A DNA stretch of 56,213 bases. It comes from an uncultured Ruminococcus sp. GTDB taxonomy: Bacteria; Bacillota; Clostridia; Oscillospirales; Acutalibacteraceae. Both the position numbers and the translations under genes were made by a program. Every line of letters begins with the position of its first letter. Within the stretch, counting starts at the first letter, position 1. The notes under the pieces are model-generated. The model did not search any database, was not told where the DNA came from, and worked only from the letters and a program-made list of their open reading frames with translations. The DNA is taken from the NCBI GenBank assembly GCA_902765855.1, contig CACXBF010000012.1, positions 1-56,213 on the forward strand, given 5' to 3'. Below, in pieces: positions 1-21,500 of this stretch.

Positions 1-189
1 ACAAACTGAATAAACAGCTCCAGACTCGGCTTTTGCCTACCCCCATTTTCAATCGCCTGTAAATGCCTTGGGTCGTAGTCAACGATACTGGCAAGCTGTC
101 CTCTCGTCATACCCTGTGCTGTTCTGGCTTTCTTGATAGACAGACCGATTGGCGTAAAATCGAAATCAAAATCATTATTTTTCGCCTAT
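1..189 (-). pseudogene. decayed XRE-family regulator, 3' end outside window
   Basis: A minus-strand helix-turn-helix reading frame about 80 percent identical in DNA to the intact XRE gene at 2231-2449. The helix-turn-helix core is readable (IKKARTAQGMTRGQLASIV). At the place of the intact copy's ATG this copy has ATA, and one base is missing a few codons later, so the frame stops at once. It is therefore a decayed duplicate. It marks the left edge of the first cargo module in the window and runs off the left end. Confidence 0.7.
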
Positions 190-201
190 AAGTTCACCAC
201 C

Positions 202-284
202 TTGTACCGATATAATATTTCTATTATATTTTACAGAAATAAGAGTTCTTATTGAACGGTCTAAAATCTCTTGTTGCAGGATAT
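202..284. repeat. boundary repeat copy A with XRE operator dyad
   Basis: About 83 bases strongly similar to 4368-4451 (copy C) and, around the dyad, to 2464-2530 (copy B). It contains the inverted repeat ATATAATA-TTTC-TATTATAT at 210-229. In copy B the matching dyad lies just upstream of an intact XRE start, so this is probably the operator-promoter of that regulator. Here the regulator is broken. Confidence 0.65.
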
Positions 285-365
285 AAAATCTCTGATTATA
301 AGAAGTAATAACACTCGACGAACTTGTTTGATTTGTATAACTACAATTTATTTACACAATTACCC

Positions 366-418
366 TTGACAGCTAATTGAAATTAGCTTATAATAAGTGT
401 AGCTAATGGCAATTAGCT
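366..418 (+). promoter_or_regulatory. promoter with two TetR operators
   Basis: A consensus promoter: TTGACA (366-371), a 17-base spacer and TATAAT (389-394). The dyad AGCTAAT-n4-ATTAGCT at 371-388 fills the spacer and recurs at 401-418 over the expected transcription start. This is the usual layout for autorepression by the TetR protein that starts at 433. Confidence 0.85.
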
Positions 419-432
419 TTAGGAGGTATTTT

Positions 433-1047
433 ATGAATACAAAACAAAAAATCTTAAATGAAGCACTCACTCTTTTTTCTGAAAAAGGATATAGTTCTGT
501 TTATGTCGGTGATATAGCCGATGCTGTCGGTATTAAAGCTCCGTCGTTATACAAACACTATAAAAATAAACAAGAAATTTTTGATTCTTGCATAAAAGTT
601 TTTTCCGAAAGAATGGAAGACATTAGGACTTGTCTGCGATTGCCCGACACTTCTAAAGCAGATATTAACTATCAAACCGCAAATATGGAAACTATTATTG
701 AAATAGCGAACAGTTTGTTTATGTTTTATTGGCAAGATGATGTTGCTGCAAAATTCAGAAAAATGCTGATGATTGAACGCTATCATAATCCAGAATTAAA
801 TGAGTTGTTTGAGGATTTATTTATAAATGGTGCAATAAGACACGAAGAGAAGATATTTTATGATTTAATACAAGCAAAAATCATCAAGAAAGAAAATCCA
901 CATATTATTGCGCTACGCTTTTATACGCCTATTTTCTATTTGTTGCAAAAATATGATATGCACCCTGATATGATTGAAGAAGCAAATGAGGAATTAACCT
1001 TAATGGTACAGGAATTTTGCAATACTTATGGGATAAAGGAGCACTAA
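433..1047 (+). CDS. TetR/AcrR-family transcriptional repressor
   Basis: About 204 residues with an N-terminal TetR DNA-binding domain: MNTKQKILNEALTLFSEKGY, then IADAVGIKAPSLYKHYKNK as the helix-turn-helix (residues about 25-45). The C-terminal half is an all-helical ligand-binding and dimer domain of typical size. The start at 433 is chosen because AGGAGG at 421-426 is well placed; the upstream in-frame ATG lies inside an operator. It overlaps the next gene (TAATG), so the two are co-transcribed and probably share regulation by the twin operators upstream. The ligand is unknown. Confidence 0.9.
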   Translation: MNTKQKILNEALTLFSEKGYSSVYVGDIADAVGIKAPSLYKHYKNKQEIFDSCIKVFSERMEDIRTCLRLPDTSKADINYQTANMETIIEIANSLFMFYWQDDVAAKFRKMLMIERYHNPELNELFEDLFINGAIRHEEKIFYDLIQAKIIKKENPHIIALRFYTPIFYLLQKYDMHPDMIEEANEELTLMVQEFCNTYGIKEH

Positions 1048-1970
1048 TGATGAGAAGAAAGGCTTGGTATAAACGGATGTGGATATATATCGTTGGAGGT
1101 ATTCTACTTTTATTTGTAGTATATCTTATTGTTCAAGGAATACGGTGTAATATTGCCGTGAAAGAAAGTAAAGAACGGCTTACCACTTATGGGGCAGAAA
1201 CAGTTAATTTGAGTTATGGGAAAATGAGTTATGTTGACACTGGCAAAGGCGAAGCAATCTTGTCTGTACACGGGATTTTTGGGGGCTATGACCAAGCCTA
1301 TGACACCTGCAAAGATTTAAGTTCAGATTACAGGATTATCGCACCATCGCGGTTTGGATATTTAGGTAGCGATATTTTGGGTGACGGAACGCCCGCTGAG
1401 CAAGCAACAGCATATGTGGAATTGCTAGATAAATTAGGTATTGACAAGGTGTATCTACTGGCAACATCGGCAGGAGGAAGCGTTGCTATTCGCTTTGCTT
1501 TGGATTATCCGGAACGCACAAAGGGGTTGATTTTATACTGTTCTGCAATGCCTTTTATAGAAAAGCCAGAGAATTATTCTGAATATGCGGGACCGCCTGC
1601 ATTTTTGTGTAATGATTTTACAATGTTTCTTATTAGTCCACTATTTGAACCCATTATGGGTATGGAGCCGTCTACGATTTACAGTATGCTTCCTGTTAGT
1701 GAGAGAAAAGATGGTGTGGTATTAGATTCCTCTGTAACCAATCTTGATATGGCAAGAAATTATGACGATTATCATATTGAAGATTTGCAAGTGCCAACAT
1801 TGGTTTTTCAAGCAAAAGACGATAAATTGATAAGCTATTCAGATACCGAAAAAGCTGTCAAAAGAATTCCGAATTGTACCTTTATTCCTTTTGAAAGCGG
1901 TGGACACTTGATGGAAGGACACGGGGAAGAAATTAAGGAAGCTGTTTCAAAATTTATAAAAGAGCGGTAA
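1047..1970 (+). CDS. membrane-anchored alpha/beta hydrolase
   Basis: About 307 residues. One N-terminal membrane segment (IYIVGGILLLFVVYLIVQGI) is followed by an alpha/beta hydrolase fold. The oxyanion-side motif is HGIFGG. The nucleophile elbow is ATSAGG with Ser near residue 141; the usual first Gly is Ala. Probable Asp near 258 (AKDDKL) and His near 287 (GGHLMEG) complete a triad. AAAGGAG precedes the overlapping ATG. Substrate unknown; pairing with a TetR repressor suggests an inducible detoxifying esterase or lactonase, which is inference. Confidence 0.85.
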   Translation: MMRRKAWYKRMWIYIVGGILLLFVVYLIVQGIRCNIAVKESKERLTTYGAETVNLSYGKMSYVDTGKGEAILSVHGIFGGYDQAYDTCKDLSSDYRIIAPSRFGYLGSDILGDGTPAEQATAYVELLDKLGIDKVYLLATSAGGSVAIRFALDYPERTKGLILYCSAMPFIEKPENYSEYAGPPAFLCNDFTMFLISPLFEPIMGMEPSTIYSMLPVSERKDGVVLDSSVTNLDMARNYDDYHIEDLQVPTLVFQAKDDKLISYSDTEKAVKRIPNCTFIPFESGGHLMEGHGEEIKEAVSKFIKER

Positions 1971-2008
1971 TTTACGCCATTATAAAATGCTTGGAGGGGG
2001 ATATAAAT

Positions 2009-2182
2009 ATGGAAAAACAATTTCTGAATGTCTACATTGCCCCATCTGCGGCAATAAAACAAGGGCGTAGATATGTGATGATTGTCTATACCGTTGAGGG
2101 TAACTCTGGCGATGCTTGCAGGCAGAAGCAATACGCCGTCGGCAGCAGCGTTATCTACAGGTACGGTATTCCCGCCTATTAA
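2009..2182 (+). CDS. small hypothetical protein
   Basis: A 57-residue reading frame starting MEKQFLNVYIAP, preceded by a strong GGAGGGGG ribosome site. I do not recognise a domain. It lies between the hydrolase and a bidirectional terminator, so it may be the last gene of the TetR module or the remnant of a longer mobile-element gene. Confidence 0.4.
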   Translation: MEKQFLNVYIAPSAAIKQGRRYVMIVYTVEGNSGDACRQKQYAVGSSVIYRYGIPAY

Positions 2183-2194
2183 AAAGGGCAAAAG

Positions 2195-2227
2195 AAAAAC
2201 AGAGGTTTTTCCTTCCTCTGTTTTTTT
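2195..2227. terminator. bidirectional intrinsic terminator
   Basis: Inverted repeat AACAGAGG / CCTCTGTT with T-runs on both sides. It lies between the plus-strand module ending at 2182 and the minus-strand XRE gene ending at 2231 and can serve both. Confidence 0.8.
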
Positions 2228-2230
2228 GCC

Positions 2231-2449
2231 TTACATAAACTGTTGACGGTTGTTTCTGCAATGGACAGTTCTCACAAACTGAATAAATAACTCGATACTT
2301 GGCGTTTGTTCATCATTTTCGATAGCCTGTAAATGCTTTGGGTAATAGTCAACGATACTGGCAAGCTGTTCTCCTGTCATACCCTGTGCTGTTTTGGCTT
2401 TTTTGATAGCCAGACCGATTAGTGTAAAATCGTTATTTCTTTCGTCCAT
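2231..2449 (-). CDS. XRE-family helix-turn-helix regulator (intact copy)
   Basis: 72 residues starting MDERNNDFTLIGLAIKKAK, with a classic XRE helix-turn-helix (GMTGEQLASIVDYYPKHLQA). ATG at 2449 is preserved and preceded by AAGGTGG. This short single-domain regulator type is common in Tn1549/Tn916-like conjugative elements, where it precedes cargo or transfer genes. The perfect dyad at 2468-2491 just upstream is probably its own operator. A decayed copy lies at 1-189. Confidence 0.8.
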   Translation of the reverse strand: MDERNNDFTLIGLAIKKAKTAQGMTGEQLASIVDYYPKHLQAIENDEQTPSIELFIQFVRTVHCRNNRQQFM

Positions 2450-2463
2450 AAGCTCACCACCTT

Positions 2464-2530
2464 GTGCCAATATAATTCTCTTATTATATTGATTTGTGTT
2501 TTCTTATTAAACGATGTAAAAATGCCGACT
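2464..2530. promoter_or_regulatory. boundary repeat copy B with perfect XRE operator
   Basis: Contains the 9-base-arm inverted repeat CAATATAAT-n6-ATTATATTG at 2468-2491, between the divergent XRE gene and the excisionase-like gene at 2639. It corresponds to the dyads in copies A and C, but both arms differ from those while still matching each other. Confidence 0.65.
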
Positions 2531-2638
2531 GTGAGATATTTCACTTCCTATAAACAGAAACATAAATTCATATTTGAACACTTGATATATTTCGTTCAAA
2601 CGGCTGTAATAGAAACAGTACGCTAAGGGGGAATAGCT

Positions 2639-2818
2639 ATGTTTGAGTATATGACCGCACAGGAAGCCGCAGAAAAATGGAATGTATCTCTGCGTTGGGT
2701 ACAACGGCTATGCAAGGCAGGACGGATTGACGGTGTTATGAGTGTTAGTCGGGTATGGCTGATACCAAAGGATACAGAAAAGCCGATAGATATGAGAAAG
2801 AAGAAAAATGTGAAATAA
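2639..2818 (+). CDS. excisionase-like helix-turn-helix protein
   Basis: 59 residues, MFEYMTAQEAAEKWNVSLRW..., with a winged-helix/MerR-like fold signature (AQEAAEKWNVSLRWVQRLCK) followed by a short basic tail. The start has AAGGGGG upstream. Such small proteins in integrative elements act as excisionases or DNA-binding accessory factors. It lies divergent from the XRE gene, sharing its operator region. Confidence 0.7.
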   Translation: MFEYMTAQEAAEKWNVSLRWVQRLCKAGRIDGVMSVSRVWLIPKDTEKPIDMRKKKNVK

Positions 2819-2940
2819 AAGGGAGTTTTTTGTAGTTGCAACTGTCAGTTGACATATTGAATGGTCTGGATTGGTGGTTAGCAACTTCACAAAATGCTAA
2901 AATATGAGCATAACAATCAAATTAACAGGAGGATAAAAAT

Positions 2941-3927
2941 ATGATTTTTGCCGATAAGCTTATTTTGTTACGAAAAAAAGCAGGTTGGTCGCAAGAGGAG
3001 TTAGCTGAACAAATGAATGTCACACGACAATCTGTTTCAAAATGGGAGGGAGCACAATCTGTTCCAGACCTTGAAAAAATGATACGCCTTTCCAAACTAT
3101 TTGGAGTAAGTACAGATTATTTACTTAAAGACGAAATTGAAGAAGCCGAGCATATCAACTCGTCCAATGATATGCCGTCATTAAAGCGTGTATCTATGGA
3201 GGAAGCAAATGCTTTTCTTTCTGTAAAATCAAGGACAGCTAAAACAATAGCGTATGCTGCTTTTTTGTGTATCTTATCTCCGATAGCTCTTTTGATGTTG
3301 GGTGCAATTAGCGAAAGTACGGCAGGTGTCTTGAACGAAGATATTGCTAATGGAATTGGAATGATTGTTCTTATTATTCTTGTAGCAATAGCCGCCGTAA
3401 TGTTTATATCAAGTGGTAGCAAAACTGCCCCCTTTGCATATTTGGAAAAAGAAAAGTTTGAAACCGAGTATGGTGTGAGTGGAATGGCTAAAGAACGCAA
3501 AGCACAATACAAATAATTGCACAAAAAGAATAATATTGCGGGAACTTGCTTGTGTATTATTGCCTTAATTCCTCTTTTTATTGGAGCAATAATTGATGCT
3601 GATAATGACCTGTTTCTAATGATTATGCTTTCTCTTTCATTTCTCATTGCAGGCGTAGGTGTGATTTGTTTTATTAAGACAGGTATTATATGGGCGAGCT
3701 ATGAAAAGCTTTTGCAAGAGGGCGAATATTCTAAAGAAAACAAGGTAAAACCGTCTATTGCTGGTACTATATATATCGCATATTGGATAATTGCAACAGC
3801 AATTTATTTAGGATACAATCTATCATCAAATAATTGGGGGCAGAGTTGGATAATTTGGGTTGTTGCGGCAGTAATATTTCCTGCTATCGTTGCAATTACT
3901 AATGCCTTTGAGAAAAAATCAAAATAA
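2941..3927 (+). pseudogene. membrane XRE regulator split by one in-frame stop
   Basis: One continuous frame interrupted only by TAA at 3514-3516. The first 191 residues hold an XRE helix-turn-helix (SQEELAEQMNVTRQSVSKW) and two membrane segments. The following 136 codons, in the same frame, encode three or four further membrane segments and end in NAFEKKSK. No credible ribosome site or ATG follows the stop; only TTG is there. I read it as a former single protein of about 328 residues with a nonsense change. GGAGG precedes the ATG at 2941. The first half may still be made. Confidence 0.75.
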
Positions 3928-3930
3928 TAG

Positions 3931-4264
3931 AATGGATACTCAGTCCGATTTGTGGCAGTAAAATTCGTCAGAAATAGCGGATACATATATTGTATCACGC
4001 AGGAACGAGGATATATTATATGTAAAATCTTTTGATACGACAAATTCGCTTAATGTAAAAGAATTTTGATAGAAACATTTGCGTTTTGAGTGATAGTATG
4101 CTCTTAGGTCAAGAACTAAAACCCGTAGCAGAATTAGAGAGGATACGATATTAAGAAACTATCCTTTTTATTGTCCAAAATGCAAGCAGGAAACTTTAAT
4201 CAATGCCAAGTGTTACACATAAACTGTTATCAAAGAACCAGACACAAAAACGCAGAGCCGATGA
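3931..4264 (+). pseudogene. cysteine-rich KTR gene remnant, copy 1
   Basis: The start (WILSPICGSKIRQK) and end (YPFYCPKCKQETLINAK ... KTQSR) match the family seen at 7256-7453. About 120 unrelated bases, frameshifts and stops separate them, and the first Cys is Ser. It is clearly broken. Cysteine-rich KTR proteins are small zinc-ribbon-like proteins typical of conjugative elements, often next to resistance cargo. Confidence 0.65.
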
Positions 4265-4303
4265 ACTTGTGAGACACCTCACAGCTCGTCGGCTCTATTT
4301 TAT
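4252..4303 (+). terminator. long hairpin terminator of KTR unit 1
   Basis: A hairpin of about 19 pairs (AGAGCCGATGAACT... / ...CTCGTCGGCTCT) with loop ACAC, followed by ATTTTATT. The same element recurs at 8611-8659 and in altered form at 7440-7489. Confidence 0.8.
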
Positions 4304-4367
4304 TACATAAAGCTTTAAGGCGAAAGCACGCCATTACTGCCTAAACCTTTGTGTAAAATAAAAATCA

Positions 4368-4451
4368 TTGTACCGATATAATACTTCTATTATATTTTAC
4401 AGAAACGAGGCTTCTTAATAAAACGGTCTGAAATTTCTTTCATAGGGATAT
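4368..4451. repeat. boundary repeat copy C
   Basis: Strongly similar to 202-284, including the dyad ATATAATA-CTTC-TATTATAT (4376-4395), but with no XRE gene attached. It sits between the KTR unit 1 terminator and the next cargo promoter. The rest of 4304-4576 holds only this repeat and the promoter described next. Confidence 0.7.
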
Positions 4452-4485
4452 GTAGAAGTTAATTTAGAAAATTTGGCGCAAATGC

Positions 4486-4532
4486 TTGACTTATATATCA
4501 GGCTGATATATAATAAACATATCAGTCTGATA
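4486..4532 (+). promoter_or_regulatory. promoter with two PadR-type operators
   Basis: TTGACT (4486-4491), a 17-base spacer and TATAAT (4509-4514). The dyad TATATCAG-G-CTGATATA (4494-4510) fills the spacer and reaches the -10; a second dyad, TATCAG-T-CTGATA, is at 4520-4532. ATCAG/CTGAT dyads fit binding by the PadR protein encoded downstream. Confidence 0.8.
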
Positions 4533-4576
4533 CATTATGAGAATATAGATGAACAGACAATAAATGGAGGTGCAAC

Positions 4577-5329
4577 ATGAAAAGACAGAAAATAAGGAAA
4601 TTGTTACTTATAATTTCACTACTTTTATTTCCTGTAACGCTCTATTATTTTAGCCCTGCCTTAATCATAAATGCAGGATTGCAAGGAATAATTAACGGGA
4701 GTTTTATAGTATTTGTTTTAATGTTTCTACTTTCCATTCCTTTTGGGCGACTATTTTGTTCCTATTTTTGCCCTGCGGGTGGATTACAAGAATGTTCTTT
4801 TTTAATCAATGAAAAGAAGCCCAAACAAGGGTGGAAAAATTATATAAAGTTTGTAATATGGGGAATTTGGATAGTTTCAGTTATCTTTTGTTATTTTTAT
4901 AATGGCGAGGTTTTATCGGTAGATTTTTTCTTTGAAACAGAAAACGGTATATCCGTTTCTTCAATACAAAGCTATATTATATATTATGGAATTATTTGTT
5001 TGATATTTATCCCTTCTGTCCTGTTTGGTAAAAGGGTGTTTTGCCATTATTTTTGCTGGATGGCTCCGTTTATGATATTAGGAACAAAGCTCCGTCGTTT
5101 TTTGCATTTACCGGGGTTACATATCAAAACAAGCAAAATAGACAGTTGCATATCTTGTGGAAAATGTAATAAGTCTTGTCCTATGGGAATTGATATTATG
5201 AGTAAAACAAAGTCTGGAAAAGTTGATAATTCAGAATGTATTCAATGTGGAGCTTGTGTTGATAATTGCCCCAAAAATATCCTTTCCTATGGAATGATTG
5301 AAAAAAAGGAGAATAGTAATGGCAAATGA
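4577..5329 (+). CDS. polytopic membrane protein with two 4Fe-4S clusters (NapH/NosR-like)
   Basis: 250 residues with about five membrane segments and the family motifs FCSYFCPAGG and FCHYFCWMAPF, each with two Cys. A C-terminal ferredoxin domain carries CISCGKCNKSCP (from residue 191) and CIQCGACVDNCP (from 221). Relatives pass electrons between membrane quinol and cytoplasmic or extracytoplasmic partners. No dedicated reductase partner is nearby. GGAGG precedes the start, and the 3' end overlaps the PadR gene, so the two are co-regulated. Confidence 0.8.
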   Translation: MKRQKIRKLLLIISLLLFPVTLYYFSPALIINAGLQGIINGSFIVFVLMFLLSIPFGRLFCSYFCPAGGLQECSFLINEKKPKQGWKNYIKFVIWGIWIVSVIFCYFYNGEVLSVDFFFETENGISVSSIQSYIIYYGIICLIFIPSVLFGKRVFCHYFCWMAPFMILGTKLRRFLHLPGLHIKTSKIDSCISCGKCNKSCPMGIDIMSKTKSGKVDNSECIQCGACVDNCPKNILSYGMIEKKENSNGK

Positions 5330-5870
5330 GAAAAAAATTGATTATGTAATTTTAGGTTTGTTAAGCCATGAAGACCTGACAGGATATGAAATAAAAAAAA
5401 GAATGGATACAACACTAAAATATTTTTGGGGTGCAAGCTACGGTAGTATATACCCCGCATTAAGTGATTTAGTTAATCGTGGATTTGCAACAAAGAAAGA
5501 AGATACGAAGAACAAAAGAAATAAACTGATTTATACCATAACAGATGAAGGGCGAAAGTACCTCAAAGAATGGCTAACATTTCCTGTTGAAAAAAATGAA
5601 CTTCGTTACGAAACTTTGCTTAAATTATTTTTTGGAAATGAGCAAGGATCAGAGCAAGCGTTGTTACATATAAAATTATTCGAGGAAAAAGTAAAAAAAG
5701 AATTGCCATATCTTTTAGGTGCAGAACAAACTTTAAAAAATTGTCTGGACGATGATACTACCCACAAATACTATTTGCTTACAGTACAGTTTGGGATAAA
5801 AACTTATCATGCTTACTTAGAGTGGTGCGAAGAAGCCAAAAAAATTTTGATGGAAACGGAGAACGGATAA
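5319..5870 (+). CDS. PadR-family transcriptional regulator
   Basis: 183 residues: an N-terminal PadR winged helix (YVILGLLSHEDLTGYEIKKR ... YGSIYPALSDLVNRG) and a C-terminal helical dimer domain. The start at 5319 has AAAGGAG upstream and overlaps the end of the preceding gene. It probably represses its own operon through the two dyads at 4494-4532. Confidence 0.9.
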   Translation: MANEKKIDYVILGLLSHEDLTGYEIKKRMDTTLKYFWGASYGSIYPALSDLVNRGFATKKEDTKNKRNKLIYTITDEGRKYLKEWLTFPVEKNELRYETLLKLFFGNEQGSEQALLHIKLFEEKVKKELPYLLGAEQTLKNCLDDDTTHKYYLLTVQFGIKTYHAYLEWCEEAKKILMETENG

Positions 5871-6359
5871 ATGATAGGACATTTAGGTTTTTCATATATC
5901 GGATTGATATTTTTACTTTTATTATTTGTTCCTAATATTATTTGGACAAAAAGAAAGCCGCACGGATATACTTCTGCAAACGAAAATAAAGTATTGATGA
6001 TTTTTGAAAGAGCAGGAGAAGTTTTGACCACAATATGTGTTTTGATTTTTGATGATTTTAATTTGCACAGTTTCTCAAACTGGACTTGGTGGCTTATTGC
6101 AGCTTTTGGCTTCATGGCAATGTATGAATGTTGGTGGGTACGCTATTTTCATAGTGAAAGAAACTTATCAGACTTTTATAGTAGCTTCTTGGGTATTCCG
6201 CTTGCAGGAGCAACACTGCCTGTAATTTCTTTTTTTCTACTTGGTATATATGGGAAAGTTATTTTGATGTTAATTGCAGCTATTATTTTGGGGATTGGTC
6301 ATATAGGCATACACAGTCAGCACTATAAAGAAATTTGCAGAGTTAAAGAGAAAAAATGA
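5871..6359 (+). CDS. membrane protein of unknown function
   Basis: 162 residues with four or five hydrophobic segments (for example IGLIFLLLLFVPNIIW and VILMLIAAIILGIGHIG). It starts one base after the PadR stop. No named family recognised. Its place as last gene of the PadR operon suggests it works with the iron-sulfur membrane protein, which is inference. Confidence 0.75.
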   Translation: MIGHLGFSYIGLIFLLLLFVPNIIWTKRKPHGYTSANENKVLMIFERAGEVLTTICVLIFDDFNLHSFSNWTWWLIAAFGFMAMYECWWVRYFHSERNLSDFYSSFLGIPLAGATLPVISFFLLGIYGKVILMLIAAIILGIGHIGIHSQHYKEICRVKEKK

Positions 6360-6380
6360 AAAATGGCGAGGTAAGACGAT

Positions 6381-6603
6381 ATGAAAAGAAAAATCCTTAG
6401 CATCATTATAGACCTCGTGTTGATAATCGGCGTGTTCTGAGCTATGAACAAATCGAAATGGTTATTATGCTCCATCTACAAATACTTACGAGCGTAAAAC
6501 AACCGAAAAAACATCTATTCCACCCATATTCGCTTTATAAGGGGTGTAGTTTTGCAAGTGAAAATGCTATTCTTATTATGAAGAAACAAAGGAGGTTTCA
6601 AAA
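6381..6603 (+). pseudogene. remnant of a membrane-anchored protein
   Basis: ATG at 6381 begins a 19-residue signal-like peptide (MKRKILSIIIDLVLIIGVF) and stops at 6440; another frame is open afterwards up to the next gene. The N-terminus resembles class B sortases carried by similar elements, but too little remains to be sure. No other gene is seen in 6360-6603; a GGAGG at about 6591 serves the next gene. Confidence 0.35.
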
Positions 6604-7068
6604 ATGGAACAAATCACAATAGGAAAGTTTATTGCAAAAAAACGCAAAGAACAAAATTTAACCCAAGAACAACTTGCCGAACGCCTGGGTGTTTCAAACA
6701 AAACCATTTCAAAATGGGAAACAGGAAAATGTATGCCCGATTATGCTGTAATCAAGAACTTGTGTGAGGAATTAAAAGTCTCGGTTTCTGAATTGATGGA
6801 CGGTGAAGAAGCTGACGATAAAAGTGTTCGTGTATATGATGATGAACAAATCCTCGATTTGTTGAGAAGAACACAAGAATTAGAAAAGCAAAAAGTAATG
6901 CTAATTGGTGTTATTCTTATCGTTATGGGAATTGCTTTTCAAGCATTATCGCATACCTTGGGTGGTTCAAATGTCAAAGATTTTTTCTCAGGACTTTTAT
7001 TGGGGCTGTCTATCGTTGAAATGTTGGCAGGTATTTGTGTGATCGCCAAAGAATGCAAAAGAAAATAA
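6604..7068 (+). CDS. XRE regulator with C-terminal membrane hairpin
   Basis: 154 residues: helix-turn-helix (LTQEQLAERLGVSNKTISKW, residues about 19-38), a linker, then two membrane segments (VMLIGVILIVMGIAFQAL and FFSGLLLGLSIVEMLAGICV). Such membrane XRE regulators usually sense envelope stress or antimicrobial peptides together with a membrane partner. The likely partner directly downstream is frameshifted. GGAGG sits well before the ATG. Confidence 0.85.
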   Translation: MEQITIGKFIAKKRKEQNLTQEQLAERLGVSNKTISKWETGKCMPDYAVIKNLCEELKVSVSELMDGEEADDKSVRVYDDEQILDLLRRTQELEKQKVMLIGVILIVMGIAFQALSHTLGGSNVKDFFSGLLLGLSIVEMLAGICVIAKECKRK

Positions 7069-7086
7069 TATAGGAAGTAACATATT

Positions 7087-7256
7087 ATTACAAAAGAAAT
7101 AATTATACTGATTGTTGGAACTTTTTGTTCATTGTAGGAATTGCGGCTGTTTGTGTTGGGCATAACGAAGCAAACCAAACTTTGTTATATGCGGGTGTAA
7201 CTTTCACTACTATTGAATTTCTGTTATCTTGCATTTTAAGAAAAAATGACAAATAA
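7087..7256 (+). pseudogene. frameshifted small membrane protein
   Basis: The first part reads TKEIIILIVGTFCS, and after a one-base shift near 7127 it continues FIVGIAAVCVGHNEANQTLL to a stop at 7254-7256. Together they would form a two-segment membrane protein of about 55 residues. The stop overlaps the ATG of the next gene (TAATG), indicating a former operon. Confidence 0.55.
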
Positions 7257-7453
7257 TGCTTTTAGAGGTAAAAATAGAATTTATTTTATGCCCCGTCTGT
7301 AAAAACAAAACTCGGTTGAAAATACGAGAAGATACCGAGCTAAAAAACTTCCCGCCGTTCTACCCTGAATGCAAGAATGAAACCTTAATTGATGTAAGAA
7401 ATTTACATATAACAGTCATCAAAGAGTCCAACGCAAAGACGCAGAGCCGATGA
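7256..7453 (+). CDS. cysteine-rich KTR protein, copy 2
   Basis: 65 residues, with CPVC near the start and a second pair reduced to YPEC: the family's first Cys of that pair has become Tyr, so a zinc site would lack a ligand. It ends KTQSR inside the terminator hairpin, like the other two copies. It has the only open frame of the three copies. Function of the family is unknown; it is typical of conjugative-element cargo regions. Confidence 0.6.
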   Translation: MLLEVKIEFILCPVCKNKTRLKIREDTELKNFPPFYPECKNETLIDVRNLHITVIKESNAKTQSR

Positions 7454-7489
7454 ACTTGTGAGCAATCACAGTCATTTACTCTGCGTTTT
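7440..7489 (+). terminator. altered hairpin terminator of KTR unit 2
   Basis: Begins like the other KTR terminators (CGCAGAGCCGATGAACTTGTGA), but the 3' arm is different: TCACA pairs with TGTGA and CTCTGCG with CGCAGAG, followed by TTTT. The outer pairing was rebuilt relative to copies 1 and 3. Confidence 0.65.
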
Positions 7490-7525
7490 CTATTAAAATT
7501 ACCTATCCATATTTCAATAATAGTA

Positions 7526-7574
7526 TTGACTTTCTAACGATTGTTAGGTATAATTATATCTAACAGTTGTTAGA
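7526..7574 (+). promoter_or_regulatory. promoter with two TetR-type operators
   Basis: TTGACT (7526-7531), a 17-base spacer and TATAAT (7549-7554). Dyads CTAAC-n4-GTTAG at 7534-7547 and TCTAAC-n4-GTTAGA at 7559-7574. Same layout as at 366 and 4486. The regulator expected downstream survives only as a short N-terminal stub. Confidence 0.8.
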
Positions 7575-7587
7575 AAGGTTGGAGTGA

Positions 7588-7653
7588 ATGATGGGTGATA
7601 CAAAGCAGAAAATATTATATCGAGAAATTTTTTGCAGAGATAGAGGTGGTATA
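7588..7653 (+). pseudogene. TetR N-terminal stub joined in frame to the dehydrogenase
   Basis: Twenty-two codons starting MMGDTKQKIL, which resembles the TetR start at 433 (MNTKQKIL). The sequence then runs, without a stop, into the short-chain dehydrogenase. It looks like a deletion that removed nearly all of a TetR gene between its start and the next gene's ribosome site. Confidence 0.5.
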
Positions 7654-8433
7654 ATGTCTAACATTGTAATTACTGGTGCAAATCAAGGAATTGGATATTA
7701 TTTTGTGGAGCAGGCTCTAAAGGTTGGAAACAAAGTGGCTGTGTTAGATATAGATACAGGAAACCTTGAAAGATTGGCACAAATATTTCCGAATAAACTT
7801 CTTTACTACAAGGTAGATGTATGTGATGAGATACAGATACGCACCGCTATTGCAAACATTATTAAAATTTTTCAACGAATAGATATTGCTATTCATAATG
7901 CCTGCCTTTGTACCTTTGATAAAGAAACAGCTACCGATTTCAATGTATATGAACGGGTTTTTGATGTGAATTATTATGGCGCACTTCGATTGGTAAAGAG
8001 TGTATTGCCTTATATGCAAGAACAAAAATACGGAAAAGTTATTTTTACAAGTTCTGGTGTAGGAGTAACAGGCTTTATCGGAATTTCCCCTTATGCCTCG
8101 TCTAAAGGTGCAATAGAAGCATTGGCAAAGTGCCTTAATTTAGAATATGCTTCTGTCGGTGTTACCTTCCATATTATTCACCCGCCATTAACTCGAACAA
8201 AATCGGCGGAGCCGTTACCTGTTCCGAAAGAATTTATGGCTGACCCACAAAAAGTAGGTTATGGACTTGCAAAGCATATCTCGTCCAAACGATTTATTAT
8301 TTGCCATAGTTTAGTGCAAAAAATCCAGACGATTGTCTGCTATCTTTTCCCAATTAAAATGGGCAGACTAATGTCAAAAATGACATCACGATATATAAAT
8401 AGTGAAAATCAATCTAATATGAAGGATAAATAA
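7654..8433 (+). CDS. short-chain dehydrogenase/reductase (SDR)
   Basis: 259 residues. The Rossmann motif GANQGIG is at the N-terminus, NAC replaces the usual NAG, the catalytic Ser lies in TSSGVG, and YASSK supplies the Tyr and Lys. ATG at 7654 follows AGAGGTGG, which is why I prefer it to the fused start at 7588. It oxidises or reduces a carbonyl/alcohol with NAD(P); substrate unknown. Promoter dyads indicate former TetR control. Confidence 0.85.
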   Translation: MSNIVITGANQGIGYYFVEQALKVGNKVAVLDIDTGNLERLAQIFPNKLLYYKVDVCDEIQIRTAIANIIKIFQRIDIAIHNACLCTFDKETATDFNVYERVFDVNYYGALRLVKSVLPYMQEQKYGKVIFTSSGVGVTGFIGISPYASSKGAIEALAKCLNLEYASVGVTFHIIHPPLTRTKSAEPLPVPKEFMADPQKVGYGLAKHISSKRFIICHSLVQKIQTIVCYLFPIKMGRLMSKMTSRYINSENQSNMKDK

Positions 8434-8434
8434 C

Positions 8435-8623
8435 TTGGATAAAACGGAATGGATATTTTGTCCTGTTTGTGGTAGCAAAAATGGTGATAGGTTTAGATAA
8501 GATACGGTATTAAAGAACTATCCTCTTTACTGCCAAAAATGCAAGCAGGAAACTTTGATAAATGCAAAGGAATTAAATATAACCGTCATCAAAGAGCCAG
8601 ACGCACAGACGCAGAGCCGATGA
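8435..8623 (+). pseudogene. cysteine-rich KTR gene with one in-frame stop, copy 3
   Basis: A 63-codon frame from TTG: WIFCPVCGSK, then TAA at 8498-8500, then DTVLKNYPLYCQKCKQETLI to KTQSR. All four Cys are present. Family members have RED where this reads R-stop-D, so GAA became TAA. It is otherwise intact. Confidence 0.7.
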
Positions 8624-8659
8624 ACTTGTGAGAAAACTCACAGCTCATCGGCTCTTTTA
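8611..8659 (+). terminator. long hairpin terminator of KTR unit 3
   Basis: The same hairpin as at 4252 (AGAGCCGATGAACT... with ...GCTCATCGGCTCT), loop AAAA, followed by TTTT. It ends the SDR module. Confidence 0.85.
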
Positions 8660-8681
8660 TTATCAATAAATTTGGCAGTAC

Positions 8682-8717
8682 AGCCCACCAAATAAAAAAA
8701 CGGTGCTTTGGTGGGCT
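8682..8717. terminator. hairpin, probable terminator
   Basis: Perfect 11-base arms AGCCCACCAAA / TTTGGTGGGCT around a 14-base A-rich loop. The A-run lies in the loop and no long T-run follows, so it could be a terminator or a structure of the element's end region. Confidence 0.5.
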
Positions 8718-8843
8718 GCTCTGTCACGCCCAAACAAAAATAGCGCAGCCTTCCAAGCTCGTTTAAGGTTTGGAGGGATTTTTTATGTGTTGGTCTAATA
8801 TGACCGCAACGCTGCTCGTGGTACTCTTATGGTTTTTAAATAG

Positions 8844-9092
8844 AGATTTCATAGCCCTACGGTCATTATCGCCCCTATCACAAGTCGGGTACACACAAAA
8901 GCAAAACTGCCTACGCACACCTTAATTAAAGACTTCGACGGTCTGGATAAGAACTCAATTATACTGTTTGAGCAAATTCGCACCATAGATAAACAACGCC
9001 TGCGAGAGTACTTAGGAACTCTTGACAGGCGTTTTATTCATTGCGCAGACAAAGCCCTTGCCATCAGCATCGGGCTTGCAAAAAAGGATTAG
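8844..9092 (+). pseudogene. 5'-truncated MazF/PemK-type toxin
   Basis: The frame reads SPTVIIAPITS, then LPTHTLIKDFDGLDKNSIIL and IRTIDKQRLREYLGTLD, ending GLAKKD; these are the conserved central and C-terminal parts of MazF endoribonucleases. The N-terminal strand and start are missing, with a stop just upstream at 8841. No antitoxin is seen. It was probably a stability module of the mobile element. Confidence 0.75.
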
Positions 9093-9361
9093 CTCTCTCG
9101 TTATACGGTACAAGCGGTAGCTCATATACATTAGAAACGAGGGAGGTGTTGCGGCTGTTGCATAGAGAATTTGTTTATGTTGGCGACCCTGTTCCAGAAT
9201 TAAACGAGCAGGAACACGCTGCGTTCCTTATGAATATCCAAAAGTCGATACTCCTTTCTTTGGAGAAAAGAAAGCTGCTGACACATTCTCAGCGGGAACG
9301 CTGTTTGGTCGAGCTTGAAAAGCAATATAGCAGGGAGCAAAAAAGCAGACGCCGAGCATAA
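9041..9361 (+). CDS. small element-borne protein upstream of the recombinase
   Basis: The open frame gives up to 106 residues, but its first codons overlap the mazF remnant in another frame. The protein-like part starts near LYGTSGSSYTLETREVL and ends EKQYSREQKSRRRA, with a helical, charged C-terminus. Start uncertain. Small charged proteins of this kind sit before large serine recombinases in related elements. Function unknown. Confidence 0.55.
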   Translation: MRRQSPCHQHRACKKGLALSLYGTSGSSYTLETREVLRLLHREFVYVGDPVPELNEQEHAAFLMNIQKSILLSLEKRKLLTHSQRERCLVELEKQYSREQKSRRRA

Positions 9362-9375
9362 CGCTTGGCGTTTTT
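9349..9375 (+). terminator. intrinsic terminator
   Basis: ACGCCGAGC-ATAAC-GCTTGGCGT followed by TTTT. It closes the small gene and insulates the recombinase promoter region at 9376-9476. Confidence 0.8.
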
Positions 9376-9476
9376 ACATAGCCGAGTAAAAAAACAAATT
9401 TGCACATTCGACACCGCACACACTTTTTTCTATAATTAAATACAGTAACAAAGTTTACTGAGAAAGGAGCTTCGCT

Positions 9477-11177
9477 ATGATAAATAGATATGAACGCCTA
9501 AACCAAGAGCTGAAGATGGTTGAAACGAAAAGAAAGGTAGCTGCCTACTGCCGTGTTTCAACGGATAATGAAGACCAAGCCAATTCGTTTGAAAGCCAGC
9601 AGCGGTATTTCAGACAGTATATTGAGCGCAATTCCGATTGGGAGCTTTATGAGATTTTTGCCGATGAGGGCATTTCTGGCACGAACACAAAGAAGCGCAA
9701 AGAGTTTAACCGTATGATAGCGTGCGCCAAGAACGGCGACTTTGATTTGATTATTACCAAGGAGATTTCCCGTTTTGCGAGGAACACCCTTGATAGTATA
9801 TATTACACCCGTGAATTGAAAAAGCATGGCGTCGGTGTTATATTTATGAATGACAATATCAATACCTTAGACGGCGATGCAGAGCTTCGTCTGGCGATTA
9901 TGTCCTCTATTGCACAGGAAGAAAGCCGTAAGACTTCCGAGCGTGTGAAGTGGGGACAAAAACGCCAGATGGAACAAGGTGTTGTGTTCGGCAGAAGTAT
10001 GTTAGGCTATGATGTTGAGGGCGGCAAAATGACTATCAACGAAGAAGGCGCAAAGGTTGTTCGCCTTATCTTTCATAAGTTCGTCAATGAGGGCAAAGGA
10101 ACGCATGTCATCGCCCGTGAGCTTCGTGAGGAAGGTATCAGCCCTATGCGGGTCAAGGAATGGAGCAATACGGTCATTCTGCGAGTGATACGCAATGAGA
10201 AATACTGCGGCGACTTGGTGCAGAAAAAGACCTATACGCCAGACTTCCTATCTCACGAAAAGAAATACAACCGTGGGCAAGAGGAATTTGTTATCATTAA
10301 AGACCATCACGAGCCGATTATCTCCCGTGAGCTGTTCGATGAAGCCAACCGCATTTTAGATGCAAAGTCGCTCTCTCAGGAGGGTAAGGCGAAGCATTCT
10401 AACCGCTATCCGTTCTCTGGCAAAATCAAATGCGGCTGCTGCGGTTCAAGCTATGTAGCAAGGTATAAAACCAGAAAGGACGGCAGCCGATATAAGGCGT
10501 GGCGCTGCAACGAAGCCGCAAAGCACGGAAGCCCCCATATCGACAAGGCAGGAAACCAAGTCGGCTGTACGGGCTTGTCTATCCGCAATGAGGATGCGAC
10601 CCACATTATGTATCTCGTAACCAAGACCCTTAAATACAACAGAAACAAAGTCATAAATAACCTAACTGCCGTTATTCAGTCCATTATTGCTATGGATACG
10701 ACGGGTACGGATGTCCTAAAGCTGCAAGAGCAGATTAAAAAGGTTGAGGGCAAGCGGGCTAATCTGATTGACCTGTATATGTCCAATCTGATTAACAAGG
10801 ACGAATTTACCGCCACCCGTGCAAGCTGCGATGCGGAAATCGAGGAGCTTCAATCTATCATTGAAAGCGTTGATAAACAGCGGGAAATGATAGAGCAGCA
10901 ACAGCAGCTTCTAAAAGAGATTGAGGACGCAATCAAAGAGATTGTCAGCGGCGTGGAGTACGAAGATGAGTTCTATAAGCACATTTTAGACAAGATGGTA
11001 GTTCAAGATAAGGACAACATAGATGTATATCTGAATTTACTTCCTATGAAGTGGAGCTATACGGTTGCAAAAGCATCAAAAAAAGCCGTAGCCTCTGAAT
11101 GGAACATTTCAGAGGCTTCTCTACCTATGTCCGTCAATATTGCCTTAAGTTCAGGAAACGGCATAGAAAATCTTTGA
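9477..11177 (+). CDS. large serine recombinase (element integrase)
   Basis: 566 residues. N-terminal resolvase domain with nucleophile Ser near residue 28 in YCRVSTDNE and the conserved ISRFARN motif. The recombinase domain follows, then a Cys-rich zinc ribbon (IKCGCCGSSY ... WRCN ... GCTG, residues about 320-365) and a long coiled coil (about 410-490). It integrates and excises the element by serine recombination. AAAGGAG precedes the start. Its last ~18 codons lie in DNA that is antisense cotJC, so the present C-terminus seems to come from the insertion site. Confidence 0.92.
   Translation: MINRYERLNQELKMVETKRKVAAYCRVSTDNEDQANSFESQQRYFRQYIERNSDWELYEIFADEGISGTNTKKRKEFNRMIACAKNGDFDLIITKEISRFARNTLDSIYYTRELKKHGVGVIFMNDNINTLDGDAELRLAIMSSIAQEESRKTSERVKWGQKRQMEQGVVFGRSMLGYDVEGGKMTINEEGAKVVRLIFHKFVNEGKGTHVIARELREEGISPMRVKEWSNTVILRVIRNEKYCGDLVQKKTYTPDFLSHEKKYNRGQEEFVIIKDHHEPIISRELFDEANRILDAKSLSQEGKAKHSNRYPFSGKIKCGCCGSSYVARYKTRKDGSRYKAWRCNEAAKHGSPHIDKAGNQVGCTGLSIRNEDATHIMYLVTKTLKYNRNKVINNLTAVIQSIIAMDTTGTDVLKLQEQIKKVEGKRANLIDLYMSNLINKDEFTATRASCDAEIEELQSIIESVDKQREMIEQQQQLLKEIEDAIKEIVSGVEYEDEFYKHILDKMVVQDKDNIDVYLNLLPMKWSYTVAKASKKAVASEWNISEASLPMSVNIALSSGNGIENL
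11113..11125. other. junction of mobile element with cotJC (att site region)
   Basis: Read on the minus strand, CotJC similarity holds through LTDIG and probably the next codon or two, then stops abruptly where family members continue with TEELAH. The crossover therefore lies about here. The matching left junction, with the 3' part of cotJC, must lie outside the window. Confidence 0.6.
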
Positions 11178-11308
11178 CTCAAATACCTTAGAGATGCTCC
11201 TAATTCACCGTCAGGACCGCCATATTGTGTGCAAATTATTTTTGCGAGCTTTGGATTAGGATTTTTTATTCTTATAGGATATTCAAGCTTTTTCTCGTAA
11301 ACCCACAT
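11115..11308 (-). pseudogene. cotJC: 5' fragment of spore coat gene cotJC, interrupted by the element
   Basis: MWVYEKKLEYPIRIKNPNPK, GGPDGELGASLRYLSQRFSM and ELKAILTDIG match the N-terminus of CotJC, a manganese-catalase-like coat protein of about 190 residues. After about 62 residues the match ends at the integrase junction, and the frame continues through element DNA to 11057. The catalytic iron/manganese region is missing here. It lies two bases after cotJB, as in intact cotJABC operons. Confidence 0.85.
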
Positions 11309-11310
11309 AG

Positions 11311-11568
11311 CTAATTCCCCTCCTCGTTGTTATCCCATGGCCATGGGTTTGAAATCCATGCCCAACGATTGGCATTATCTCTCTTTGCCTGAATAGGTCC
11401 AAATTTTTCCTCATATTCCTTTCTGAGGGCGTTGCTCTTAGCATTATAATCAGCTAACTTATCCGCAACAGCTTTATCATTCGGATGTGTATCAAGATAA
11501 ATATGAAGTTCAATAACAGCAAAATCATATGACGAGATTCGTTTCATAAGTCTTTCTCGTTCAGTCAT
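11311..11568 (-). CDS. cotJB: spore coat protein CotJB
   Basis: 85 residues with the family pattern SSYDFAVIELHIYLDTHPND and the Trp-rich end WAWISNPWPWDN. Full family length. It overlaps the cotJA stop by four bases. In Bacillus the cotJ operon is made in the mother cell and its products enter the inner coat. Confidence 0.92.
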   Translation of the reverse strand: MTERERLMKRISSYDFAVIELHIYLDTHPNDKAVADKLADYNAKSNALRKEYEEKFGPIQAKRDNANRWAWISNPWPWDNNEEGN

Positions 11569-11771
11569 TCTTCAGCACCTCCGCACTTTTCGCAGTTCGG
11601 ACAGAAAGGCTTGTCTAAGCAAGGAAACATAGTTCCGCTTGAAATTCCCTGCTCTACGCCATAAAGTCTTTGAGCATTTTGATATGGAACATAAGCCATA
11701 GCTATCACAGGGTTATCAGGAAGTGGAGAAATATTATATTCCATAGCCTTTTGCCTTACAATATCTTCCAT
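11565..11771 (-). CDS. cotJA: spore coat-associated protein CotJA
   Basis: 68 residues with the conserved core AMAYVPYQNAQRLYGVEQGI and a Cys-rich tail (CPNCEKCGG). AAAGGAG precedes the start. First gene of cotJABC. I could not identify a convincing mother-cell sigma promoter upstream. Confidence 0.9.
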   Translation of the reverse strand: MEDIVRQKAMEYNISPLPDNPVIAMAYVPYQNAQRLYGVEQGISSGTMFPCLDKPFCPNCEKCGGAEE

Positions 11772-11840
11772 AGAAACAAACTCCTTTCACAAATTATCAA
11801 TACATAATATGCAAAATCCTAAAAACTGCTACCAGAAAAA

Positions 11841-21031: not shown

Positions 21032-21107
21032 GGGAGCATAGCTCAGCTGGGAGAGCACCTGCCTTACAAGCAGGGGGTCACAGGTTCGAGCCCTGTTGTT
21101 CCCACCA
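21032..21107 (+). tRNA. tRNA-Val (anticodon TAC)
   Basis: Acceptor arms GGGAGCA / TGTTCCC, anticodon stem CCTGC/GCAGG with loop CTTACAA, T-loop TTCGAGC, encoded CCA. First of four closely spaced tRNAs. Confidence 0.97.
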
Positions 21108-21110
21108 TTT

Positions 21111-21187
21111 GGCCCGGTAGTTCAGTTGGTTAGAACGCTAGCCTGTCACGCTAGAGGTCGTCGGTTCGAACCCGATCCGGGTCGCCA
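21111..21187 (+). tRNA. tRNA-Asp (anticodon GTC)
   Basis: Acceptor GGCCCGG / CCGGGTC, anticodon stem CTAGC/GCTAG with loop CTGTCAC, T-loop TTCGAAC, encoded CCA. Confidence 0.97.
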
Positions 21188-21190
21188 TTT

Positions 21191-21266
21191 GCCTTTGTAG
21201 CTCAGTCGGTAGAGCAGGGGACTGAAAATCCCCGTGTCGGTGGTTCGATTCCGCCCGAAGGCACCA
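21191..21266 (+). tRNA. tRNA-Phe (anticodon GAA)
   Basis: Acceptor GCCTTTG / CGAAGGC, anticodon stem GGGGA/TCCCC with loop CTGAAAA, encoded CCA. This is the tRNA that the T-box upstream of pheS should sense. Confidence 0.97.
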
Positions 21267-21271
21267 TATCT

Positions 21272-21347
21272 GCGGATGTAGCTCATCTGGTAGAGCGCCA
21301 CCTTGCCAAGGTGGAGGTAGCGAGTTCGAGCCTCGTCATCCGCTCCA
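21272..21347 (+). tRNA. tRNA-Gly (anticodon GCC)
   Basis: Acceptor GCGGATG / CATCCGC, anticodon stem CCACC/GGTGG with loop TTGCCAA, encoded CCA. Confidence 0.97.
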
Positions 21348-21392
21348 GTTCTAAACGGAATGTTTAATACATATATTTTATTAAGCTTCCGA

Positions 21393-21422
21393 AAGGTGCT
21401 TAGAAAGTTAAGCACCTTTTTT
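21393..21422 (+). terminator. terminator between tRNA-Gly and tRNA-Cys
   Basis: AAGGTGCTTA / TAAGCACCTT followed by T-rich sequence. It lies only five bases before tRNA-Cys, so that tRNA needs readthrough or its own promoter. Confidence 0.8.
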
Positions 21423-21426
21423 ATTC

Positions 21427-21500
21427 GGTGCCATAGCCAAGCGGTAAGGCGTGGGTCTGCAAAACCCTGATCCCCAGTTCAAATCTGGGTGGCACCTCCA
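21427..21500 (+). tRNA. tRNA-Cys (anticodon GCA)
   Basis: Acceptor GGTGCCA / TGGCACC, anticodon loop CTGCAAA on stem GGGT/ACCC, encoded CCA. It follows a terminator and precedes another. Confidence 0.96.

Follow-up and report, generated by a model that had tools for sequence, protein, structure and literature searches.

The window, a stretch of 56,213 nucleotides from an uncultured Ruminococcus sp., is the entire contig C12 of a 2.39-Mb genome in 43 contigs (G000) and carries the cotJ spore-coat operon, whose third gene, cotJC, is split by an element with a large serine recombinase. The two parts of cotJC lie on different contigs of this genome and, joined at the core that they have in common, form one reading frame. 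Splitting of cotJC is widespread beyond the window and affects several sites, leaving genes in two to four pieces whose conservation is about that of uninterrupted cotJC. We consider it probable, for the window and for the class-wide set alike, that the intervening DNA is excised in the mother cell, where the gene would be rebuilt.

The split cotJC gene and the element at its junction

On the minus strand cotJA, cotJB and the beginning of cotJC lie one after another (Table 1). As the first-pass annotation of this DNA had held, cotJA and cotJB are intact, each matching its own Pfam family, and cotJC stops at LTDIG. The homology to CotJC is lost after this motif (residue 62, ~11123-11125), and the Mn_catalase match of the 83-amino-acid open reading frame (ORF) at 11057-11308 (minus strand) is restricted to positions 1-71 of the 284-position model; past LTDIG the ORF reads 21 codons of the element and then meets a stop. 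The same annotation had the integrase gene beginning at the junction, which is wrong, as the recombinase ORF ends there, convergent with cotJC, its 3' end overlapping the cotJC fragment so that the final ~17 codons are antisense cotJC. The 3' fragment that it proposed to look for is present in the same genome. A search with Mn_catalase located it on contig C19 at 397-828 (plus strand; model positions 61-217), with a homology that starts at GTEELAHLEMV and runs to the stop codon. Besides the two cotJC parts, the search of the genome gave one match of 11.3 bits, under the cut-off of 27.

The two junctions, ACGGACATA-GG-TAGAGAAGCC and GATGCTTCTCTG-GG-CACTGAGGAA, have GG in common, and joining the C12 and C19 parts over this core produces LTDIG-TEELAHLEM and a single full CotJC; the rejoined frame, which the annotation had left to be checked, is thus intact. 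The corresponding empty site is found in a genome of the same genus (G001), where an uninterrupted cotJC encodes a protein with 100% and 99.3% identity to the two halves. Inverted-repeat arms are expected of the attP site of serine integrases. The element arm at 11101-11122, AGAGAAGCCTCTGAAATGTTCC on the cotJC strand, and its counterpart at the C19 end form an inverted repeat (20/22), and none of 200 shuffles gave arms equally good around the GG core. The split of cotJC between C12 and C19 and its paired arms are confirmed as real and not due to chance.

The best NCBIfam matches of the recombinase were CcrB (126.5 bits, cut-off 900), CcrC (123.5, cut-off 900) and XisF (122.1, cut-off 375), and because these scores are far under the cut-offs the protein is not an equivalog of any of the three. 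Homologues of the small gene upstream of it, collected by a hidden Markov model search, precede 26 of 34 B1 recombinases (five seeds of the model, including the window's gene, are counted), and the gene is an unproven candidate for a recombination directionality factor. The cargo of the element comprises a TetR regulator, an alpha/beta hydrolase, helix-turn-helix regulators, a 4Fe-4S protein, a PadR regulator, a short-chain dehydrogenase and a PemK/MazF remnant. This remnant, 53 amino acids at 8931-9089 (plus strand), aligns with positions 67-108 at the end of the 109-position PF02452 model (2.3e-08) and is a degraded toxin-antitoxin gene. No relaxase or conjugation module was found in the 11 Pfam-scanned ORFs of window positions 1-9361, and the element continues beyond the contig. 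On the host side of the junction there is a tRNA cluster, Val-Asp-Phe-Gly-Cys, at 21032-21500.

Table 1. Features of the cotJ locus and the adjoining element, in window coordinates
Feature	Position	Strand	Evidence
Element part on the window contig	1..11123	.	runs off contig; other end at G000:C19 ~403
Small gene upstream of recombinase	9041..9361	+	no Pfam family; homologues by hidden Markov model precede other B1 recombinases
Large serine recombinase, 566-amino-acid ORF, clade B1	9477..11177	+	Resolvase 5.2e-33, Recombinase 1.3e-24, Zn_ribbon_recom 7e-10 (Pfam); tree
attL-like junction, GG core 11124-11125	11101..11145	.	sequence comparison with C19, in-frame join, inverted-repeat test
cotJC 5' part, codons 1-62, ending LTDIG	11124..11308	-	Pfam Mn_catalase positions 1-71
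cotJB, intact	11311..11568	-	Pfam CotJB 7.3e-28
cotJA, intact	11565..11771	-	Pfam CotJA 5.8e-14
Sigma-K-like promoter motif, AGCA-14 nt-GCATATTATG, 32 nt before cotJA	11803..11830	-	trained matrix (106 cotJ loci) score 15.6; consensus resemblance only

Recurrence of cotJC splits in the class Clostridia

Searches were carried out with the recombinase only and with Mn_catalase. The former, in 398 genomes of the family (E<=1e-120), gave matches in 32 genomes and 22 of 135 genera. Recombinase similarity alone served to fetch 30 loci, one of them that of the window; a cotJC part lies at most 1.5 kb from the recombinase in 25, and no cotJC part was found within this distance in five (L097-L100, L116). 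The Mn_catalase searches, at the level of the family and then of the class Clostridia, placed recurrent breaks at model positions ~32 (site A), ~64 (site B, used in the window) and ~150 (site C); by codon the sites are A ~32, B ~62, C ~135 and D ~175, the last with fewer cases. Pieces meet at site A, B or C in 92 of 110 genomes, a ratio that is not a prevalence because the genomes were preselected by a weak best match; site A is split in 41 of the 92, B in 56, C in 15, and more than one site in 17. As a lower bound of prevalence, the 226 high-quality genomes of the family with a match include at least 62 split ones, the window's own not counted and genomes with an intact paralog as best match being left out. 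Neighbouring pieces share contig and strand in 45 of the 92, defining 52 intervals of 2.3-157 kb (median 9.8 kb), in a listing that was compiled by hand, dropped distant-paralog and weak rows and left 14 of the 110 genomes unresolved. In genome G107 four cotJC pieces follow each other in gene order on the same contig and strand, and in the single-contig genomes G247 and G517 three pieces keep the gene order. Two cotJC pieces that overlap by 13-28 nucleotides or leave a 2-nucleotide gap were seen in G455, G606, G622 and G666; these abutting pieces, perhaps frameshifts and not insertions, were not counted as splits.

Eighty named loci, chosen by similarity to the window's 5' half and hence giving no estimate of prevalence, include 22 in which the match to CotJC breaks off at site B (14 loci), C (6) or D (2), and the 3' part is within the fetched stretch in six of these. 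Examples at site B are Clostridium viride DSM 6836 (L047) and Pseudoflavonifractor sp. An44 (L034), the 3' part of the latter not having been located; an example at site C is the MS4 isolate labelled Amazonia massiliensis (L030). Site D is the end of CotJC homology in G126, L012, L060, L077 and L056, with the remaining cotJC part, preceded by a recombinase, found in L056 only. L008 and L048 were rejected as splits, the contig ending within an uninterrupted frame, and L053, which loses the frame near the contig end and at no recurrent site, was left out of the counts. The IMG/VR viral contigs L119 and L122 carry a cotJC middle piece of ~35 codons between site-A and site-B recombinases; part of that collection is therefore chromosomal DNA of such loci.

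The recombinases of sites A, B and C fall into separate clades, one or two per site, in a tree of 66 sequences, for which the program warns of long branches between clades. All 20 site-A recombinases fall in one clade (support 99/98), and site C likewise has one clade, of five rows (100/100), one of them labelled 'Cinner'. Site B has two, B1, the type of the window, with 37 rows (four without cotJC within 1.5 kb, one an inner copy), and B2, with four rows including C. viride. Judged from coordinates, the site-A recombinases are in the sense of cotJC in 18 of 20 cases. The 34 joins examined (33 distinct, L055 repeating G215) are all in frame over the shared core, and the arms form an inverted repeat at p<=0.05 in 26 of 33 (A 11/14, B 11/15, C 4/4) in a test that scanned the arm offset and gave the shuffles the same freedom. 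These loci would form a class-wide set of cotJC-intervening elements, in which four target sites were seen and the recombinases fall into at least four clades.

The intervals range from elements with little besides a recombinase to long chromosomal stretches. That of G278 and G120 (2.3 kb) holds an Amidase_6 gene, a small divergent ORF and the recombinase, and the 5.1-kb interval of C. viride a DtxR-type regulator, FeoA, FeoB and the recombinase. The 157-kb interval of the single-contig genome G428 has conjugation-type genes (TrwB, T2SSE) and IS21 genes, 82 of its 98 listed ORFs having been scanned. The site-B element of G270 encodes a Cas9 of 1324 amino acids with REC, PI, HNH and RuvC domains (L142:4524-8495, minus strand), and a cupin-domain protein, perhaps with a function in spores or under stress, is shared by two site-A elements of different genera (L128:5285-5728, L130:2820-3341). 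In the bacteria studied so far, guanylate kinase and alanyl-tRNA synthetase are essential. The site-C interval of G107 contains yicC-gmk-priA-fmt-rsmB-prkC-rsgA-thiN, with the sole gmk found in the genome (C23:117296), and the site-A interval of G321 contains alaS, holA and tRNA-Leu, with the sole alaS found (C48:92719). Hence, if excision of these intervals rebuilds cotJC, it cannot be heritable and fits a terminal cell only. Both assemblies are multi-contig, so that a chimeric contig is possible; the att arms are intact at both ends of the two intervals (G321 17/22, G107 site C 18/22).

Probable excision in the mother cell and competing explanations

The split gene appears to be kept in use. 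The frames of all 32 split cotJC 3' parts are open, and the omega of the 3' part between split pairs was 0.049 for G120/G278, 0.018 for G056/G174, 0.009 for L060/L077 and 0.032 for G386/G345 (NG86 method; 14 pairs, of which eight with saturated dN/dS were not used). In the first two pairs the recombinase dS is similar to that of cotJC (1.09 vs 1.19 and 0.348 vs 0.354) and the loci are collinear, hence element and gene diverged together by vertical descent, with cotJC under constraint throughout. Moreover, 25 joined CotJC composites violate 0-4, and so keep 59-63, of the 63 columns conserved in 52 intact CotJC proteins; one intact row was an outlier (0.42, leave-one-out test), and the G120 and G278 composites reach residue 140 only. 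Split cotJC is about as conserved as the intact gene. SpoIVA is encoded in the window genome (C2:68443) and in 69 of the 71 family genomes of the Mn_catalase search, among them all 62 that resolve as split, compared with 258 of 287 high-quality genomes of the family; the two lacking it, G121 and G266, are among nine that do not resolve as split. Judged by this marker gene alone, the host of the window would be a spore former. In the assembly of G338, attR stands at one contig end and, across 2 Ns, the next contig opens with 14 bases of the cotJC 5' side and the core, which reads as a rejoined attB junction.

The window would then hold one end of a serine-recombinase intervening element inserted at the recurrent site B. 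The recombinase of the element would recombine attL with attR, removing the intervening DNA and rebuilding an in-frame cotJC, and the small neighbouring protein would set the direction of the reaction. Productive excision would take place in the mother cell late in sporulation, and the forespore would retain the split gene. The joining, its direction and its sporulation-specific timing are what we infer from these sequences, the mother cell being proposed on account of the sigma-K-like promoter motif of the spore-coat operon that includes cotJC.

Both sigma-E and sigma-K are active in the mother cell. An untrained sigma-K-like consensus, AC-N15-18-CATANNNTA, occurs upstream of cotJC in 29 of 106 loci (7.6 in shuffles), mostly ~510-560 nucleotides before cotJC, that is, directly before cotJA. 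A trained matrix, roughly [CA]ACA - 14-17 nt - GCATAGAATG, scores >=10 in 93 of the 106 (3.8 in shuffles), a difference that training inflates, and its motif is one that we take to resemble the sigma-K consensus. For a smaller set of loci a perfect sigma-K consensus precedes cotJ in 9 of 22 (0.33 expected from shuffles), and the sigma-E consensus was not enriched there (0/22). B. subtilis cotJC is listed in the sigma-E regulon in PMC3416734; this listing and the sigma-K-like motif before cotJ bear out the earlier view that the interrupted gene is a mother-cell coat gene. At site A, a sigma-K-like motif lies 16, 15 and 19 nucleotides before a small gene divergent from the recombinase in G309, G107 and G321, as expected for a mother-cell-triggered directionality factor, the elements of G309 and G107 having been found through the motif itself and thus offering no independent test. 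Transcription reading through from cotJ may also act as a trigger at site A, since most recombinases there point the same way as cotJC.

Several observations weigh against excision timed by sporulation. No sigma-K- or sigma-E-like promoter was found upstream of the window recombinase. Of the sporulation-controlled switch suggested by the first-pass annotation, the rejoinable in-frame split is supported, also by the comparative evidence; control by sporulation, for which the cotJ operon of the window but not its recombinase has a sigma-K-like motif, is a proposal. Upstream of the recombinases in general, whose start codons were guessed by a simple rule, there was no enrichment of sigma-E or sigma-K motifs (1 and 0 of 20 at site A, 1 and 0 of 33 in B1), and a sigma-A-like match was enriched before B1 recombinases (3/33 vs 0.1), an argument for their expression during growth. 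Sigma-K motifs were not enriched before the B1 small gene (2/25 vs 0.87), nor were sigma-K-like motifs within the elements (15 vs 32 and 60 vs 65 in shuffles). Nearly identical B1 recombinases occur in different genera (G082, G270), so the element moves horizontally and cotJC could be merely a favoured attB; these recombinases are also found in both orientations relative to cotJC. The element of the window is divided between contigs, and in 46 of the 92 split genomes the pieces were located solely on different contigs. The single-contig genome G395 has the halves inverted and far apart (446947-447321, plus strand, and 2556912-2557097, minus strand, on C1), so that rejoining would require inversion instead of deletion, or cotJC is dead there. 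Two of the pairs under constraint are weaker proof, L060/L077 with a recombinase dS of 0.946 against 0.395 for cotJC, yet collinear, and G386/G345 with 0.755 against 1.413 and collinearity not seen. The rejoined junction of G338 could derive from an element-free strain in the sample.

Part of this evidence suits ordinary site-specific mobile elements, similar to integrative and conjugative elements (ICEs), integrative and mobilizable elements or prophages, which would use conserved cotJC codons as attB and excise occasionally for transfer with no sporulation cue, insertion into cotJC being tolerated since the gene is silent during growth. The near-identity of recombinases across genera, the wide variation in cargo, the conjugation-type genes of G428 and the sigma-A-like enrichment before B1 all favour such elements. 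However, intervals of 2.3 kb with scarcely more than an amidase and a recombinase are collinear in two genomes and under selection, up to three insertions occur per cotJC with the pieces conserved, and the core genes in two intervals make growth-phase excision lethal there. We regard this explanation as rather unlikely, though it is the strongest competitor of mother-cell excision.

Simple insertion damage, the alternative named in the first-pass annotation, would leave cotJC dead in the split strains. The element does cut the 3' half off from its start codon and promoter, and rejoining was not observed in the window genome; nevertheless the open frames, low omega and retained columns of the split parts contradict loss of function, and identical sites and recombinase clades recur across families. 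Damage is very improbable because the splits recur at fixed sites, the split parts are under purifying selection and the hosts are spore formers. That the pieces are made as separate polypeptides which assemble with no DNA rejoining is scarcely credible, for in spite of internal start codons in some site-A 3' parts (e.g. MGASLRY in G278), the conserved middle pieces of ~30 codons (G107, G247, G335) would give tiny peptides, and this small protein is split in several places, always, in the joins examined, at a recombinase attachment core.

Relation to known intervening elements

Mother-cell excision of the cotJC elements would have precedents in known systems. The skin element in sigK of B. subtilis and C. 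difficile (PMC4191935) and SPbeta in spsM (PMC5025042) are likewise serine-recombinase elements that split a mother-cell gene and are joined precisely. The cotJC elements differ from both in the target, in having several sites per gene with up to three insertions in one gene, and in intervals that are in some cases of 2.3 kb and in others contain core chromosomal genes. The gin element in gerE of B. cereus ATCC10987 is a non-prophage element in a sporulation gene, with a serine recombinase and the helper GirX (PMC5595907); it is a single 28.6-kb island with three recombinase genes and one site, whereas the cotJC recombinase clades sort by site. Recombinase elements also interrupt spoVFB (vfbin), spoVR (vrin) and yabG (yin), and the passages drawn on from PMC4191935 and PMC10747680 name no gene as split at several sites; yin is reported as unique to one strain (PMC10747680), whereas the cotJC splits recur class-wide. 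The interrupted targets named in these papers are sigK, spsM, spoVFB, spoVR, gerE and yabG (PMC4191935, PMC5595907, PMC10747680). Among the matches listed in the open full-text literature, with subscription papers mostly outside, an interrupted cotJC was not reported. Passages of PMC3416734, PMC4028888 and PMC8745062 treat cotJC as an ordinary coat gene, and a large survey of serine recombinases (PMC10083194) does not mention cotJ in its main text.

The large serine integrases of ICEs and prophages share with the window recombinase the order Resolvase-Recombinase-Zn ribbon and the inverted-repeat arms around a short core. The element of the window is inserted in the coding region of cotJC, between the cotJA-cotJB side and the 3' part, its serine recombinase adjoins the junction, and the gene parts give one frame. 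On these features the window is classed, from sequence, as a member of a widespread, multi-site variant of the sporulation gene-intervening elements.

It is conceivable, although we hold it at somewhat less than even, that a cotJC in up to four pieces is assembled in the terminal mother cell by several distinct serine recombinases, each bound to a site of its own, and that in some lineages essential genes in the removed DNA, the sole gmk copy in G107 and the sole alaS copy together with holA in G321, lock the split, which the germ line could then not shed. This would amount to programmed somatic DNA elimination in bacteria with a logic comparable to the germline-soma DNA elimination of ciliates. 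Developmental gene rearrangement in spore formers has so far been known from a handful of genes. The class-wide cotJC set would provide natural replicates for asking why mother-cell genes attract and keep such elements, and supplies recombinase clades with inferred target sites. Moreover, Clostridium viride DSM 6836, a type strain in culture, allows the idea of a bacterial soma to be put to a direct test.

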